This document shows, piece by piece, positions 16,614-24,960 of a stretch of DNA of 64,000 nucleotides. The DNA comes from Allorhodopirellula heiligendammensis (lineage in GTDB: Bacteria; Planctomycetota; Planctomycetia; Pirellulales; Pirellulaceae), in the NCBI RefSeq assembly GCF_007860105.1, contig NZ_SJPU01000002.1:981739-1045738 (forward strand), in the 5' to 3' direction. The stretch's first letter is position 1; each line of letters begins with the position of its first letter. A program made the position numbers and the translations under genes. Below the pieces are notes generated by a model that saw only the letters and a list, made by a program, of their open reading frames with translations, was not told the origin of the DNA and made no database searches.

Positions 16614-18020
16614 CTATGCCTCCTGTGAACGTTCTACTTCGAAACCGCGAGCGTTCCAGGCACTCCAACTTCCCGGGACATTGAGGACATTTTCGAAACC
16701 GCGAGATTTCATCAAGCTGGAAGCGATACTGGCGCGGTATCCGCTGGCGCAGTACGTCGCGTAGGCTGAGGTCTTGTCCAATCCGGTGATGCGGTCCCTC
16801 ATCTCGCCAATGAAATAGTGTGTGGCGCCCGGCACATGGCCGTCAGCCCATTCTTCCGGGGAGCGAACATCCAGGATCGTCATAGTTGGATCGTCGCGTT
16901 GTCGGGTTCGCAATTCATCCACAGTCAGTTGCTGTAAATGGGTGAGCGGATATCCTGCCATCTCCCAGCTCTTCATACCGCCGCACAGATAGCCGGCGAA
17001 GTTGGCGTGCCCGGTGCGTACGATTAACCACCCGATGTTTTCAATATCCGTTTCATCCTCGACAATCAGCAGGATGCGGTGGTTTAGGTCGAATAACTGC
17101 CCGACCCACGCAGACATGTCTGGACGATCACCAATATTGATTGCTCCCGGAACATGCCCACCACCAAACGCCAGCATCGATCGTGTGTCGATCAGCACCA
17201 CGCCGGACTCCCGCTGCACACGGCGAAACTCGTCAGGCGGTAAAGCCGGTATGGTGGGCAAGCGATCCAGCAGCTCAGGCCCAGTTGCGTTCACTTTCTT
17301 CAGTTTGGGATAGTGCCATGGGACGGGTGGTGCGTCATCCACCACGAAGGACCGGAACGAATCGTAGTCGGGGAAATTTAAAAATTTGTTGGTGCGTCGC
17401 TCGTACCCGATCGTGCTGTTAAGCCGATCTCCAATATCGGCGCCGCACGCCGATCCAGCGCCGTGGCCTGGGTATATCGTCACGAAGTCCTCCATTTTCA
17501 AATAGTACTGATAGAGCGTCTGATAGAGTTGCTCGGCGAGATCATTCGTCTCATCAGCACCTAATAAATCAGGACGTCCCGCAGAACCCACGAACAGCGA
17601 ATCACCGGTGAAAATCGCCCATGGAGTCTCTGGATTTTTCTTCTCACACAGTTCGAATGCGAGATGCTCTGGAGTGTGACCTGGCGTGTGGCGGGCAACC
17701 AAGTGAAAAGAACCAAATTCGAACAATTGACCATCTGAGACCGACTCCGCGTCAAATTGGTACTCGGCGTCGAGGCTGCTCAGATACACCTTTGCCGTTT
17801 GGACGCGATCTGCCAGCGACCGACTGCCAGAGACGAAGTCAGCATGGATGTGGGTCTCAAAGATATGTGTGATGGCGAGGCCGTGCTTCCGCGCAAGACT
17901 TTCGTACACGGTTACGTCCGTCCGCGGGTCGATCACAATGGCGCGTCCCGATTCCGTATCACCGACCAAGTAGGAAAGCTGAGCAATCCCGTTTGTTAGG
18001 ATGGATTCGAGAACGAACAT
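16614..18020 (-). CDS. CstB-like persulfide dioxygenase with pseudo-rhodanese and rhodanese domains
   Basis: A 468-residue cytosolic enzyme. Residues 1-250 are a metallo-beta-lactamase fold with T-H-I-H-A-D-F-V-S-G, H-T-P-G-H-T-P-E-H, F-T-G-D-S-L-F and Y-P-G-H-G, the iron-binding residues of persulfide dioxygenases. Residues about 265-360 are a rhodanese fold with no active-site Cys. Residues about 370-460 are a second rhodanese with an intact loop, Y-C-A-S-G-Y-R. This order (dioxygenase, Cys-less rhodanese, active rhodanese) is that of staphylococcal CstB, which turns low-molecular-weight persulfides into thiosulfate and sulfite. It heads a three-gene operon with the two YeeE/YedE halves, so the likely job is sulfide/persulfide detoxification with movement of the sulfur product. 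Confidence 0.9.
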   Translation of the reverse strand: MFVLESILTNGIAQLSYLVGDTESGRAIVIDPRTDVTVYESLARKHGLAITHIFETHIHADFVSGSRSLADRVQTAKVYLSSLDAEYQFDAESVSDGQLFEFGSFHLVARHTPGHTPEHLAFELCEKKNPETPWAIFTGDSLFVGSAGRPDLLGADETNDLAEQLYQTLYQYYLKMEDFVTIYPGHGAGSACGADIGDRLNSTIGYERRTNKFLNFPDYDSFRSFVVDDAPPVPWHYPKLKKVNATGPELLDRLPTIPALPPDEFRRVQRESGVVLIDTRSMLAFGGGHVPGAINIGDRPDMSAWVGQLFDLNHRILLIVEDETDIENIGWLIVRTGHANFAGYLCGGMKSWEMAGYPLTHLQQLTVDELRTRQRDDPTMTILDVRSPEEWADGHVPGATHYFIGEMRDRITGLDKTSAYATYCASGYRASIASSLMKSRGFENVLNVPGSWSAWNARGFEVERSQEA

Positions 18021-20577: not shown

Positions 20578-21042
20578 GTGAATGCAACCTTGAGCAAGAA
20601 CACTCCCTCGCCAAACGCAGATGACAATCCCATCGTTAGCGTTGGAACCCAGTGGGTGATTGATGCCAGCGGATGTGAATTGGAAAAGCTTCAATCTGTT
20701 GAGCTCATCGCAGCGTTCTGCCAGCGAGTGATCGACTCGCTGGGATTGCACGTGATTGGAACTCCGGCGTCGCATCGGTTCGATGCGCCGCACGGAGTGA
20801 CCATGCTATATCTGCTCAGTGAATCTCACTTGGCGGTCCACACCTATCCCGAACACGGTCTGGCCACGTTTAATTTCGTGTGTTGCCGCGAGCATGCCGA
20901 GTGGCCCTGGGAACGTGAACTTCAGATCGCGCTGGGAGCGCGAACGGTATTCATCCGCGTGCTCCGACGCGGAGAATGGTCGCCGCTCGAGCGGCCGCTT
21001 GATCGCCAGGCAATTGCAACTGACGCGGAGGCCGTGGGATGA
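20578..21042 (+). CDS. speD: SpeD-type S-adenosylmethionine decarboxylase (pyruvoyl enzyme)
   Basis: A 154-residue protein starting at GTG. The signature S-E-S-H-L-A-V-H-T-Y-P-E gives self-cleavage between Glu82 and Ser83, with Ser83 becoming the pyruvoyl group. His88 and Cys103 stand at the same spacing (+5, +20) as the processing His and proton-donor Cys of small bacterial SpeD. The family normally decarboxylates AdoMet to supply aminopropyl groups, but some SpeD homologues have changed substrate to ornithine or arginine, so the substrate should be tested. Its stop overlaps the next start (ATGA). It is the first gene of a five-gene cluster that also encodes a spermidine-synthase-like enzyme. 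Confidence 0.87.
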   Translation: MNATLSKNTPSPNADDNPIVSVGTQWVIDASGCELEKLQSVELIAAFCQRVIDSLGLHVIGTPASHRFDAPHGVTMLYLLSESHLAVHTYPEHGLATFNFVCCREHAEWPWERELQIALGARTVFIRVLRRGEWSPLERPLDRQAIATDAEAVG

Positions 21043-22670
21043 TCGGTGCCCGAACGCTCAAGAAGAAAGGAACGAACTGCCCGAACTGCGGGGGGCCAGT
21101 GGAGTTTCGCTCCGGCGGTACGATGGTGGCTGTTTGCGAATTCTGTCATAGCGCTATCGCACGCGGCGACCGCGAAGTCGAGCTGATTGGCAAAGTCTCC
21201 GATCTGGTGGAAACCGACAGCGTCGTGCGGTTGGGATCGACCGGGAAGTACCGAGGAAAGCCGTTTGAGTGCATCGGCCGGGTCCAGTACCAACATGCCG
21301 CCGGTGGGTACTGGGATGAGTGGTACCTCCGCCTACCCGGTGACCGAATCGCGTGGCTGGCCGACGCCCAGGGCCAACTCCAACTGACGTTCCCCCGCCG
21401 GATCGATCGACGAATCAGCGTCCCCGATTTCAATGCGATCAATCTGGGTGACAGTATCAGTTTGGGGGATACCGATCTGACGGTAATGGAAAAGGGAACC
21501 GCGACAGCATCGACAGCCCAGGGTGAGATTCCGTGGGAGTTCCGTCCCGGCGATGATCACGTCTATGTGGATTTGCGTGGACAGGACAATTGGTTCGCCA
21601 CGATCGAATACGACGCCCCACAAAAGCCGGATGGCAAACGCAGCTTGGCCGTTGGCAAAACGGTGTCATTAGCAGACCTGCATCTCGATGCACCCGCAGT
21701 CGAACCACTCGCAGCGGACTCCATCCGTCGTGTGCAGGCGGTGCAATTGAACTGCCCGCAATGCGGTGGGCCATTGGATTTGCGAACCCCTGATCAAACG
21801 ATGCGTGTCGGCTGTCCCAACTGTGGCGCGCTGCTCGACGTCAATGATGGCAAACTGCGGGTGCTGAAAACGCTCGATGATCGACTGGTCAAGCCATCGA
21901 TCCCGCTAGGCAGCGTCGGGCGTTTTCAATGCCGTGATAAAGTGAGCGATCACGAGTTTACGTTGATTGGGTGCATGGATCGTTATGCGATGTATCAAGG
22001 AACCGCCTATCCCTGGCGTGAGTATTTGCTTCACAACCCAAAAATCGGTTTTCGCTGGCTCGTCGAAAACGATCGCCATTGGTCCTTCGTTGAGCCGGTG
22101 ACCGATGGTGATTTCAATCACCATTTTGAGTACCATCAGTCGCTGCAGTACAGCGGTCGCTCGTACCGACTGTACGATCGTGGCCGCGCTTATGTGCGCT
22201 CGTGCATGGGCGAGTTTTACTGGAGAGTCAATCAGGGCGACGTGGTTTCAACCAGTGATTACATCAGTCCTCCCTACATGCTTTCGTTTGAGACATCAAA
22301 ATCGGGCAAGACCGAAGAACTCAATATCTCGCATGGAGTCTATTTAACAGTGGACGAGGTCAAGGCCGCCTTCCAGCTCGAGAATTTGACTCGGCCTTGG
22401 GGCGTCGGTCCAATCCAACCCTCTCCTGCGATCCACATCGGCGTGTGGTTGGCCTGGGTGGCGTTCATGGCGTTCATCACCGTGATGCACGTGCTCGGTG
22501 GTGTGTGGTTTCACGCACCTGGGCAAGCGGGGCCCGATCCATGGATGTGGTTCTACGCCATGATCTTCGTATCCGTCGTGCCATTGGGAATCGGGGCGTA
22601 CAAATATCACTTTGAAACCCAACGGTGGAAAGACAGCGACTACAGCCCCTATCCCACGGTGGAAACGTGA
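21039..22670 (+). CDS. DUF4178 protein with two zinc ribbons and C-terminal membrane helices
   Basis: A 543-residue protein. The N terminus has a zinc ribbon (C-P-N-C-G-G ... C-E-F-C, residues 14-37), then a DUF4178 beta domain (about 50-200, with G-R-V-Q-Y and Y-W-D-E-W-Y-L). A second zinc ribbon (C-P-Q-C-G-G ... C-P-N-C-G, about 237-260) and a second DUF4178 domain (about 285-430, W-R-E-Y-L-L) follow. Two hydrophobic helices lie near 470-490 and 500-525. The whole ribbon-plus-domain unit is therefore duplicated, on the cytosolic side of a C-terminal anchor. DUF4178 has no established function. Start overlaps the speD stop; the next gene starts one base after its stop. Confidence 0.86.
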   Translation: MIGARTLKKKGTNCPNCGGPVEFRSGGTMVAVCEFCHSAIARGDREVELIGKVSDLVETDSVVRLGSTGKYRGKPFECIGRVQYQHAAGGYWDEWYLRLPGDRIAWLADAQGQLQLTFPRRIDRRISVPDFNAINLGDSISLGDTDLTVMEKGTATASTAQGEIPWEFRPGDDHVYVDLRGQDNWFATIEYDAPQKPDGKRSLAVGKTVSLADLHLDAPAVEPLAADSIRRVQAVQLNCPQCGGPLDLRTPDQTMRVGCPNCGALLDVNDGKLRVLKTLDDRLVKPSIPLGSVGRFQCRDKVSDHEFTLIGCMDRYAMYQGTAYPWREYLLHNPKIGFRWLVENDRHWSFVEPVTDGDFNHHFEYHQSLQYSGRSYRLYDRGRAYVRSCMGEFYWRVNQGDVVSTSDYISPPYMLSFETSKSGKTEELNISHGVYLTVDEVKAAFQLENLTRPWGVGPIQPSPAIHIGVWLAWVAFMAFITVMHVLGGVWFHAPGQAGPDPWMWFYAMIFVSVVPLGIGAYKYHFETQRWKDSDYSPYPTVET

Positions 22671-22671
22671 C

Positions 22672-22842
22672 ATGAAACTGCTTCAGTTCTACTTGGTCGT
22701 CGGCATCGGAGTCTGTCTGTGGTTCAGCATTGCGACCGCGTACGGTTGGCGGGCACCTGACACCGGTTTCCTCAGCGGCGGATCCAGCGGTGGGGTGTAC
22801 GGCGGGCGTGGGTACGGTGGCTCGTGGGGTGGCGGCAAGTAA
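22672..22842 (+). CDS. Tiny membrane peptide with glycine-rich tail
   Basis: A 56-residue protein: one hydrophobic helix (residues 3-24, LLQFYLVVGIGVCLWFSIATAY) and a tail of Gly, Ser and aromatic residues (GGSSGGVYGGRGYGGSW). The ATG follows the DUF4178 stop by one base, and the next gene follows by 98 bases, so it sits inside the cluster. The tail resembles the low-complexity ends of membrane assembly peptides. I know no family for it. The tight spacing argues it is real, and it may be a cofactor of the DUF4178/DUF350 complex. Confidence 0.65.
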   Translation: MKLLQFYLVVGIGVCLWFSIATAYGWRAPDTGFLSGGSSGGVYGGRGYGGSWGGGK

Positions 22843-22940
22843 GCGTGGCCGCCGCGTCCCGCCCATTTTCAAGGATCATCGCAAACTCGACGTTGAAACC
22901 ACTCACGATCATCAACAACCTTCTTATCACATCGAATGAC

Positions 22941-23234
22941 ATGAATTTTCTCGCACAGACTGCCCAAAACACTGCTGAGGACGTCCAGCACGTGGTTGTT
23001 TCACCCGCCCGCGACATGGGCCTAGACTTATTGCTCGAACACCTGATCGCGGCCAGTGTGTTTTCAATGATGGGCGTCATTGTGTTCATCGGGTGCTTGA
23101 TCCTTACGGAAAAACTCACACCCTTTTCAATCATTCATGAAATTGGCGAAGAGCATAACCTGGCGGTGTCGATCGTTGTCGCGGCGATTGTGTTGGGCAT
23201 GTCGATGATCATCGCGGCCGCTATACAAGGTTAA
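22941..23234 (+). CDS. DUF350 family small membrane protein
   Basis: A 97-residue protein from the ATG at 22941. After an amphipathic N terminus come two hydrophobic segments (about 32-55, [12 protein letters not shown] and about 75-95, [14 protein letters not shown]) separated by a polar K-L-T-P-F-S-I-x-H-E-I-x-E-E-H-N loop. This is a single DUF350 unit. DUF350 proteins often accompany membrane spermidine-synthase-like and DUF4178 genes, and their function is unknown. Five bases separate it from the synthase gene. Confidence 0.78.
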
Positions 23235-23239
23235 GCAGA

Positions 23240-24841
23240 TTGATCGACCGCGCCCCACTCGGCCTGCTCTACGTCAACGTTCTGATCATTGCCACCTGTG
23301 GGCTGGTGTATGAACTCGTCGCCGGCACGCTGGCGAGCTATCTGCTTGGCGACTCAGTAACACAGTTCTCGCTGATCATCGGCGTCTATCTCTCGGCTCT
23401 GGGTGTCGGTGCCTGGCTATCACAGTACCTGGAGCAAAGGTTAGCGAGAACCTTCATCGAGATTGAACTGGCGCTCGCGCTTATCGGTGGATTTTCGACG
23501 CCCTTGCTGTTCCTTGCCTTCCCACTGGTGGACTGGTTTCAAACATTGCTCTACAGCAGCGTGTTGTTGATCGGGATCTTAGTCGGACTCGAGTTGCCGC
23601 TACTCATGCGAATCCTAAAAGAGCATCTTGATTTCAGTGAGTTGGTCTCGCGTGTGCTCGCATTTGATTACCTGGGGGCGCTGTTCGCTTCGGTACTCTT
23701 TCCCATTTTCTTGGTTCCCAGGCTAGGCTTGACGCGAACGGCGATCTTATTCGGATTGCTCAACGCGGCAGTCGGTTTATGGGGCACTTACCTGCTGCGA
23801 CCGTTATTACCTGCTCGAGGACTGGAAGGGCTGCGCGGTCGCGCGGTACTGGTCATCGGCCTGTTGATCGTGGGATTCATCAAAGCGGATTCGTTGACGA
23901 CGCTGGCCGAGGAAAACACCTTGGGTGGCCAGATTATCTACGCCGATACATCGCCTTACCAACGCATTGCGGTGACGCAGGACGGCCGTGGGTTTCAGCT
24001 CTATCTCAATGGCCATCTGCAGTTCAACAGTGTCGACGAATATCGTTATCACGAGGCCCTCGTGCATCCTTTGATGGGTGTCTGCCCGGATGCGAAACGA
24101 ATCCTGGTGCTTGGCGGTGGTGATGGTCTGGCTGTGCGAGAGCTCCTGCGGTATCCCAATATTGAGTCCATCACGCTGGTTGATCTCGACCCAGCAATGA
24201 CTCGCTTGGCAACCCAGTTCGAGCCCTTGGCGATGCTAAATGAGCGATCCTTGTCGGATCCCAAGGTCGCCGTGATCAATCAAGACGCTTTCGTCTGGGC
24301 CAAAGACAGGCTGGAGCCATTGGCAGCGGACACGAGCGACAGTCCCGATGCAAAGTTCGACGCCGTCGTGATCGATTTCCCGGACCCCAGCAGTTACTCG
24401 GTGGGAAAACTCTACACCACTTACTTCTATCGAGCGTTGAAGCGGCACTTGGCCCCTGACGCTGGCGTGGCGATCCAGTGCACCTCGCCGCTGGTGGCAC
24501 CGAAATCATATTGGTGCATCCTCCAGACATTACGGCAGTCTGGATTCGACGTTTCTCCCTACCACGCCAGTGTGCCAACCTTTGGCGTGTGGGGGTTTGC
24601 GCTGGCGCGACCGCTGCCGACCGATTCCAGGGGTACCGAGCGGGTTTCGAGTGGTGGTGACTGGCAGTTACCTCCTAGGTTAAACCCGCGTCTTTCCGGA
24701 TTGAAGTTTCTCAATGACGCGGCGATGCGAGGCCTCTTCGACCTCCCCGCCGACCAACAGACGCGTGAGGTCTCGACCAACCGGCTCAACGATCAAATTC
24801 TCGTTCGTTTATACGATGAAGAGTGGGGCGGACGAAACTAA
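23240..24841 (+). CDS. Membrane-embedded spermidine synthase-like protein
   Basis: A 533-residue protein starting at TTG, 5 bases after the DUF350 stop. Residues 1-220 hold about seven membrane helices, beginning with the characteristic [19 protein letters not shown]. Residues about 235-490 are a spermidine-synthase Rossmann domain: Y-Q-R-I-A, L-N-G-x-L-Q-F-N-S-x-D-E-x-R-Y-H-E, L-G-G-G-D-G-L, V-D-L-D-P and V-I-D-F-P-D-P-S-S. The residues that bind decarboxylated AdoMet in soluble synthases (GGGDG, the Asp of VDLDP, and the catalytic Asp in DFPDP) are kept. It would transfer an aminopropyl group at the membrane face, fed by the SpeD of this cluster; the acceptor amine is unknown. Confidence 0.9.
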
Positions 24842-24960
24842 GTAGCAGCGTCTCTCCGAGACGCTGAGCTAAGTCTGCCCAGACGCTGAGCTAAGTCTGC
24901 CGCGCCACGGAACTGGGGCTTGGCCGGCGGTAAACCGAGTCTCGGAGAGACTCGGCTACT
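24841..24960. repeat. REPIN-like element: two opposed perfect hairpins with two direct repeats between
   Basis: The left hairpin (24847-24865) has stem AGCGTCTC/GAGACGCT and loop TCC; the right hairpin (24936-24954) has stem CGAGTCTC/GAGACTCG and loop GGA. The hairpins are inverted copies, and the 25-base arms match at 21 positions. Stem differences are compensated so each stays a perfect 8-bp hairpin. Between them a 20-base unit, GACGCTGAGCTAAGTCTGCC, occurs twice (24860-24879, 24882-24901; period 22). The element begins on the last base of the synthase stop codon. Confidence 0.75.

Follow-up and report, generated by a model that had tools for sequence, protein, structure and literature searches.

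A candidate protein-tail aminopropylation system in Allorhodopirellula heiligendammensis, with an invariant C-terminal lysine as the putative acceptor

Several phyla carry a SpeD decarboxylase together with a membrane-embedded SpeE aminopropyltransferase (mSpeE), a pair that has no known target. The question of what the pair modifies is raised by a five-gene cluster on the forward (+) strand of a 64,000-nucleotide stretch of the A. heiligendammensis genome (contig NZ_SJPU01000002.1, positions 981,739 to 1,045,738; hereafter the window). Open reading frame (ORF) and profile searches confirmed the gene order as SpeD, a DUF4178 protein, a peptide of 56 amino acids (aa), a DUF350 protein and mSpeE. 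The genes agreed with an earlier description made from the letters of the window and a list of its ORFs (the sequence-only reading), which had listed five same-strand genes in this order. We consider it rather probable, from sequence comparison, that these genes serve to aminopropylate a protein tail, with mSpeE acting on the terminal lysine of the peptide. The C-terminal lysine tail is a new and strong observation, and no paper proposing an aminopropylated C-terminal lysine tail was found in literature searches judged by title and abstract opening.

The Gly-rich tail peptide (22672-22842) was called from its ORF and its conservation among relatives. It has an N-terminal hydrophobic helix, a Gly-rich tail and the C-terminus GSWGGGK, with the terminal Lys codon at 22837-22839. 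Since 26 of the 35 base differences from the peptide of locus L005 fall at codon position 3 (six codons being nonsynonymous), it looks like a real gene. The sequence-only reading had suspected the peptide to be a new component, a suggestion that gains support from its conservation.

The comparison set combined loci from named genomes (the best 80 of 489 relatives) with the loci of 149 genomes of the phylum, and neighbouring families were found with iterated hidden Markov models (HMMs). Cultured strains with the cluster in their genome include Neorhodopirellula pilleata Pla100 (L080) and Rhodopirellula rubra (L006). Copies of the window (L001-L004, L096) were left out. Of 97 mSpeE loci screened, 70 were kept, including the window, and 27 without DUF4178 on the locus were set aside. 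DUF350 was seen on the stretches of 63 of the kept loci and SpeD on 41. Each of these 70 loci, all with DUF4178 linked to mSpeE, encodes a membrane protein whose last residue is lysine. In 68 the ending is carried by a small transmembrane (TM) peptide, encoded by a gene of 43-120 codons between DUF4178 and DUF350 (or mSpeE); the peptide contains a hydrophobic helix and finishes in Lys. In the other two (L098 and L100; wider views L175 and L176) there is no separate peptide and DUF4178 itself ends in SSFSFGGK or GGGFSSGK. When the ORF was chosen by hydrophobicity alone, the last residue was K in 66 of 68 loci, the K peptide ranking second in L017 and L023. The terminal Lys was present in 68/68 peptides, with G next to it in 46 and H in 22, whereas K made up only 1.5% of the preceding 15 residues. 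Across 78 tail peptides, forming 17 single-linkage clusters at 40% identity, it was the sole fully invariant column. By comparison, the background of C-terminal K was 4.8%, and in the same 70 loci K ended 0 of 63 DUF350 proteins, 2 of 41 SpeD proteins and 5 of 82 DUF4178 ORFs (fused tails included). By taxon, as given in record titles, the endings were GSWGGGK in Rhodopirellula, HSGFLGGK in Myxococcaceae, FWTGGK in Acidobacteria, NRYHK in Proteobacteria and RFYHK in Bacteroidota. In seven loci (L060, L061, L063, L066, L070, L072 and L087) the K-tail peptide was present and no DUF350 gene was detected; the first six are five Mucilaginibacter records and one Bacteroidetes metagenome-assembled genome. 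DUF350 may be dispensable in these loci or located elsewhere.

The sequence-only reading would have been weakened had the genes rarely been neighbours. Among the 149 phylum genomes, mSpeE scored over its cut-off in 17, DUF4178 in 20 and both in 15 (Fisher p 1.3e-14). DUF4178 lay within a few kb of mSpeE on the same contig in 15 of the 17 genomes (in G081 as detected by an HMM of our own), so the neighbourhood held, with the caveat that mSpeE occurs in only 17 of 149 genomes. In G134 DUF4178 was on a different contig, and PF13785 found no DUF4178 in G064 despite its mSpeE. A K tail in genomes with unlinked mSpeE was a prediction stated in advance. DUF4178 was found elsewhere in all 11 such genomes, and in 10 of the 10 that could be read a hydrophobic GGK-ending peptide starts at most 20 bases from the DUF4178 stop, followed by DUF350 in nine; L022 was unreadable because the genome ended at contig ends. 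A K tail was also present in all five loci viewed on wider stretches (L094, L095, L097, L099, L101), and L018 had a K peptide on its own stretch.

The same ending was met on unlike anchors: TM peptides, the DUF4178 C-terminus, long TM proteins and lipoproteins. Four planctomycete loci with a long DUF350 (282-342 aa), which surfaced while exceptions were being resolved, all had a protein of 338-520 aa before DUF350 ending in K (RFGGGK, RFGGGK, GFGGK and SRGGK); PspA was confirmed by Pfam in one of these loci, L177. In Pseudomonadota, 30 loci were obtained from 398 genomes with long DUF350 as the query, and the tail was picked by position. Where mSpeE was present the tail ended in GK in 18/18, just before DUF350 (11) or mSpeE (7), with a lipobox pattern in nine tails and a tenth, in L214, recognised by eye. 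Among the remaining loci, two end in GFIG and lack mSpeE, and no tail was seen in six. Ser-rich proteins ending in SSSGFIG occur in DUF350-related loci without mSpeE (L204, at L231:5223-6209, and L206, at L232:3649-4662), and two neighbours of the L231 protein gave no Pfam match. In L216, L217, L219, L221 and L224 a DUF350 protein of about 300 aa stands beside a gene that we take, from its sequence, to be HldE-like, and no tail gene was seen.

A converse pattern was found in the same Pseudomonadota genomes. In 30 loci read out of 62 genomes with a DUF1190 match, DUF1190 proteins, which have Gly/Ser-rich tails, ended in GG in 30/30; a YgiC/YjfC-like peptide-spermidine ligase homologue was on the locus in 28/30 and mSpeE in 0/30. 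In E. coli, YgiB ends in RSMGG and YjfM in GHWGG, and the next genes are named peptide--spermidine ligase in RefSeq; the work on these ligases is cited as Pederick 2023. DUF1190 would be the substrate of the ligase. The window peptide, ending in GGGK, lacks the GG ending, and a scan of the five products and of three flanking proteins showed no GspS-like ATP-grasp ligase. These patterns bear on whether the lysine is instead a docking or assembly determinant that binds mSpeE, DUF4178 or DUF350, with mSpeE making some other product. That tails stay beside DUF4178 and DUF350 even in genomes with a distant mSpeE gene fits such a role, as does the general tendency of small TM peptides to be subunits. 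However, the ending recurs on unlike anchors, and the corresponding tails paired with a peptide-spermidine ligase homologue end in GG and not in K; we regard docking as unlikely.

The GGK ending could also be a by-product of the Shine-Dalgarno sequence of the next gene. Among 66 of the 68 peptides, a Shine-Dalgarno-like core lies in the last codons of 35 of 44 GK-type tails, 34 of them with a start within 12 bases of the core. No core was present in the 22 HK-type tails, however, and DUF1190 tails end in GG without K. Shine-Dalgarno overlap can shape the Gly-Gly but does not explain the Lys: its codon falls within the spacer, HK-type tails have no core, DUF350 never ends in K although the gene after it often follows at a comparably short distance, and the window tail is 98 bases from the chosen DUF350 start. 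A by-product of this kind is therefore highly improbable as the source of the ending.

The enzyme expected to act on the lysine is encoded at 23240-24841 (TTG start, 533 aa). It matched PF01564 (107.6 bits) and the membrane polyamine aminopropyltransferase family NF002956 (620.8 bits, over the cut-off of 472), with the architecture of that family: an N-terminal TM domain of seven helices (residues 7-214, 23258-23881) and a SpeE-fold domain (residues 222-530, 23903-24829) with a catalytic Asp379 (codon 24374-24376) and a fold match to 1uir/3anx. In an alignment of 62 sequences (A1), Q241, Q261, D266, E267, Y270, H271, GGGDG, D317, D349, D379 and D382 were kept in 62/62, and they were likewise kept in the 11 long-DUF350-type sequences, save one glycine of GGGDG; genome G130 contributes to both counts. 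On the acceptor side, the loop with P381, K390 and T415-S416-P417 is unlike that of most of eight soluble SpeEs. The NF002956 and fold matches would suit an ordinary membrane-anchored spermidine synthase with the peptide as an accessory. Yet mSpeE scored below the cut-off of the canonical spermidine synthase model TIGR00417 (107 vs 249.55 bits), its acceptor loop is altered and the terminal lysine would go unexplained. The title of a 2019 study by Li and colleagues also speaks of 'A polyamine-independent role'. An ordinary synthase is accordingly improbable. A second Spermine_synth match above 100 bits was absent in 14 of 15 cluster genomes, chosen by us from the named-genome loci. In the genome of the window (7.18 Mb, 97.6% complete), the sole AdoMet_dc, Spermine_synth and DUF4178 matches are those of the cluster, with one SpeD and one SpeE match. 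Since this genome also holds one deoxyhypusine-synthase-family gene, separate from the cluster, and two Orn/Arg/DAP-decarboxylase-family matches, it may have a second triamine route.

SpeD (20578-21042, GTG start, 154 aa), an AdoMet_dc-family pyruvoyl decarboxylase by its profile matches, scored above the gathering score of PF02675 (82.4 bits) and below the cut-off of the S-adenosylmethionine (AdoMet) decarboxylase equivalog TIGR03330 (69.1 vs 75.65 bits). Ser83, the predicted pyruvoyl residue, His88 and Cys103 stand where the sequence-only reading placed them, with the spacing of S63/H68/C83 of T. maritima, residues named in a passage of PMC10407285. The substrate of SpeD is presumably AdoMet. 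The DUF4178 protein (21039-22670, 543 aa) overlaps SpeD by four bases and matched PF13785 over two stretches (122.9 bits, above the gathering score). The sequence-only reading had described two complete zinc-ribbon/DUF4178 units, and both ribbons and both units were recovered: ribbon 1 (C14/C17/C33/C36) with unit 1 (21228-21668), and ribbon 2 (C239/C242/C259/C262, invariant in 41/41 aligned) with unit 2 (21990-22346). The AlphaFold2 (AF2) model of the protein has a mean predicted local distance difference test score of 89.2, and two C-terminal helices (residues 467-490 and 501-529) were taken as TM. Two-unit DUF4178 proteins also occur outside this genome, in the comparative loci. The DUF350 membrane protein (22941-23234, 97 aa) matched PF03994 with 40.2 bits (gathering 26) over positions 2-66 of 133, a half-length form; its ATG start at 22941 is our choice, the longest ORF beginning at 22824.

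Under the favoured explanation, SpeD would make decarboxylated AdoMet (dcAdoMet), from which mSpeE would move the 3-aminopropyl group onto the epsilon-amine of the last residue, lysine, of the GSWGGGK tail. The product would be N6-(3-aminopropyl)lysine, so that the Gly-rich tail, anchored in the membrane, would finish in a spermidine-like chain, (CH2)4-NH-(CH2)3-NH2. DUF350 and DUF4178 are taken as putative membrane partners that act as scaffolds or sensors. That this lysine is the acceptor is suggested by its invariance across tails; the identity of the product and the site of reaction are likewise predictions. The sequence-only reading had foreseen a membrane complex that makes or attaches an aminopropyl group. 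An attaching system fits our results, whereas its proposed lipid or envelope-polymer acceptor found no support here, the evidence pointing to the peptide lysine. The membrane setting and the PspA of some sibling operons (L177) could suit a lipid or polymer, but no lipid-handling family was matched in the five products and the invariant lysine would be given no role, and we hold such an acceptor to be distinctly improbable.

The reaction may take place in the periplasm, as indicated by mSpeE charge, tail charge, lipoprotein tails and a twin-arginine amine oxidase. The K+R count of the N-terminus and even loops of mSpeE exceeded that of the odd loops in 62/62 sequences (means 9.4 vs 2.2), and even loops exceeded odd loops in 11/11 long-DUF350-type sequences. 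This N-in bias (together with AF2) and the seven TM helices predict a periplasmic SpeE domain. By charge, tail peptides were N-in in 49 of 66, with three opposite and 14 ties. An amine oxidoreductase that binds flavin adenine dinucleotide (FAD; PF01593 in the members scanned) lies downstream of mSpeE in 39 of 58 clustered loci (e.g. L037:9467-11110), with a twin-arginine motif in 36 and a lipobox-like Cys in 17 of the 39; in the genome of the window it is unlinked (G000:C4:37218-38849; L141:5195-6862; 48% identity). A fuller scheme is tentative: at the periplasmic side of the inner membrane, mSpeE might build aminopropyl-lysine, perhaps repeatedly, on the Lys tail, with the seven TM helices passing dcAdoMet across and the amine oxidase then oxidising the chain. 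A polytopic-looking membrane protein of about 360 aa occurs downstream in 29 of 58 loci (e.g. L066:11159-12238), without a Pfam or NCBIfam match in two members scanned, and is a possible further component. Upstream of the cluster, L016 (1394-2512), L049 (4711-5706) and other loci encode an SPFH/Band_7_1 protein that ends in a GYF_2 or SHOCT domain.

Several results weigh against lysine-tail aminopropylation. L076 has neither DUF4178 nor a tail on its locus; of the 27 loci set aside, 16 were followed (15 with K), and L007, L011, L019, L027, L033, L035, L038, L039 and L041 are uncounted. In four Pseudomonadota loci a K tail was seen although the stretch examined contained no mSpeE, and the Shine-Dalgarno core of GK tails may explain part of the Gly-Gly. 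Two of the eight soluble controls (L103, L104) carry parts of the 'altered' mSpeE loop, and position 390 is His in one of the 11 long-DUF350-type mSpeEs. The NCBIfam name for mSpeE is plain polyamine aminopropyltransferase, weaker Spermine_synth matches (<80 bits) occur in seven of the 14 genomes other than that of the window among the 15 chosen, and literature searches found no report of a modified tail. No export signal was seen by eye in SpeD, and SpeD looks cytosolic while the SpeE domain is predicted outside, which makes the topology puzzling. Export of dcAdoMet, modification of the tail ahead of its insertion, or an error in the predicted topology could each account for this.

Around the cluster, an exact inverted pair of GTCTCTCCGAGAC lies directly after mSpeE (24850-24862 and 24939-24951), and recurs nowhere else in the window even when one mismatch is allowed (expected 0.17); it is possibly a terminator or a mobile intergenic repeat. 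The three flanking proteins scanned were a glutathione peroxidase, a major facilitator superfamily (MFS) protein and a tetratricopeptide-repeat-like protein. Neither PspA nor CesT/Tir was found among these three; the rest of the genome was not searched for PspA. Elsewhere in the window, a metallo-beta-lactamase fold is fused to two rhodanese domains (16614-18020), and a Methyltransf_30 protein (1873-2664), presumably MnmC-like, shows Spermine_synth similarity below threshold.

Because some sibling operons hold PspA, the purpose of the system is probably envelope stress homeostasis. The invariant lysine reduces the question of the target to one mass-spectrometry experiment, with an expected shift of +57.058 Da (from C3H7N). 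If the proposal is true, this would be a new protein modification, and the spermidine synthase family would gain what is, to our knowledge, its first protein substrate.

The window operon is a variant of polyamine operons that have been described before without a known target. Ravi 2024 (PMC11237479) reports PspA operons with a 7TM-spermine synthase, an 8TM DUF350, DUF4178 and a lipoprotein, and mentions 'aminopropylation of other substrates' with reference to Li et al.; among 5.39 million papers searched it was the only one in which DUF4178 turned up, and its main text contains neither 'lysine' nor 'glycine'. The gene association is thus already known, as the sequence-only reading had stated for DUF350 and DUF4178, and the target is not. 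The Group-2 PspA operon described there (CesT/Tir-PspA, Ctha_1186 lipoprotein) likewise brings mSpeE, DUF350 and DUF4178 together, and the long-DUF350 loci resemble it in that their long TM protein or lipoprotein beside DUF350 also ends in GK. The window cluster differs in having no PspA in the scanned flanks and a half-length DUF350 (97 aa) rather than an 8TM form; its DUF4178 is doubled and bears Zn ribbons, and the lipoprotein is replaced by the 56-aa peptide. The YgiB/YgiC and YjfM/YjfC systems are alike in combining a membrane protein or lipoprotein with a Gly/Ser-rich tail and a polyamine enzyme, with DUF350 in the yjf operon, and their end product would also be a polyamine on a tail. 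Unlike the window cluster, with its predicted aminopropyl transfer to an encoded lysine, they use an ATP-grasp ligase on the GG carboxylate. The proposal, if true, would unite two DUF350-sharing operon types, one ligating spermidine to a GG end and the other building the chain on a lysine. The SpeD and MFS-SpdSyn fusion systems of Li and colleagues (2019, Biochem J) reportedly contain the same enzyme pair, with an inferred non-polyamine role and no reported substrate; the window analysis names a candidate acceptor. In deoxyhypusine (eIF5A) and the lysine-polyamines of silaffins, an aminoalkyl chain is carried on the lysine epsilon-N. The predicted tail would bear a like chain at the same atom, although donor, enzyme family and protein are unrelated. 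If true, it would be a bacterial counterpart of hypusine- and silaffin-type lysine polyamination, with the ligase-made spermidine tails of YgiC/YjfC as a second route.

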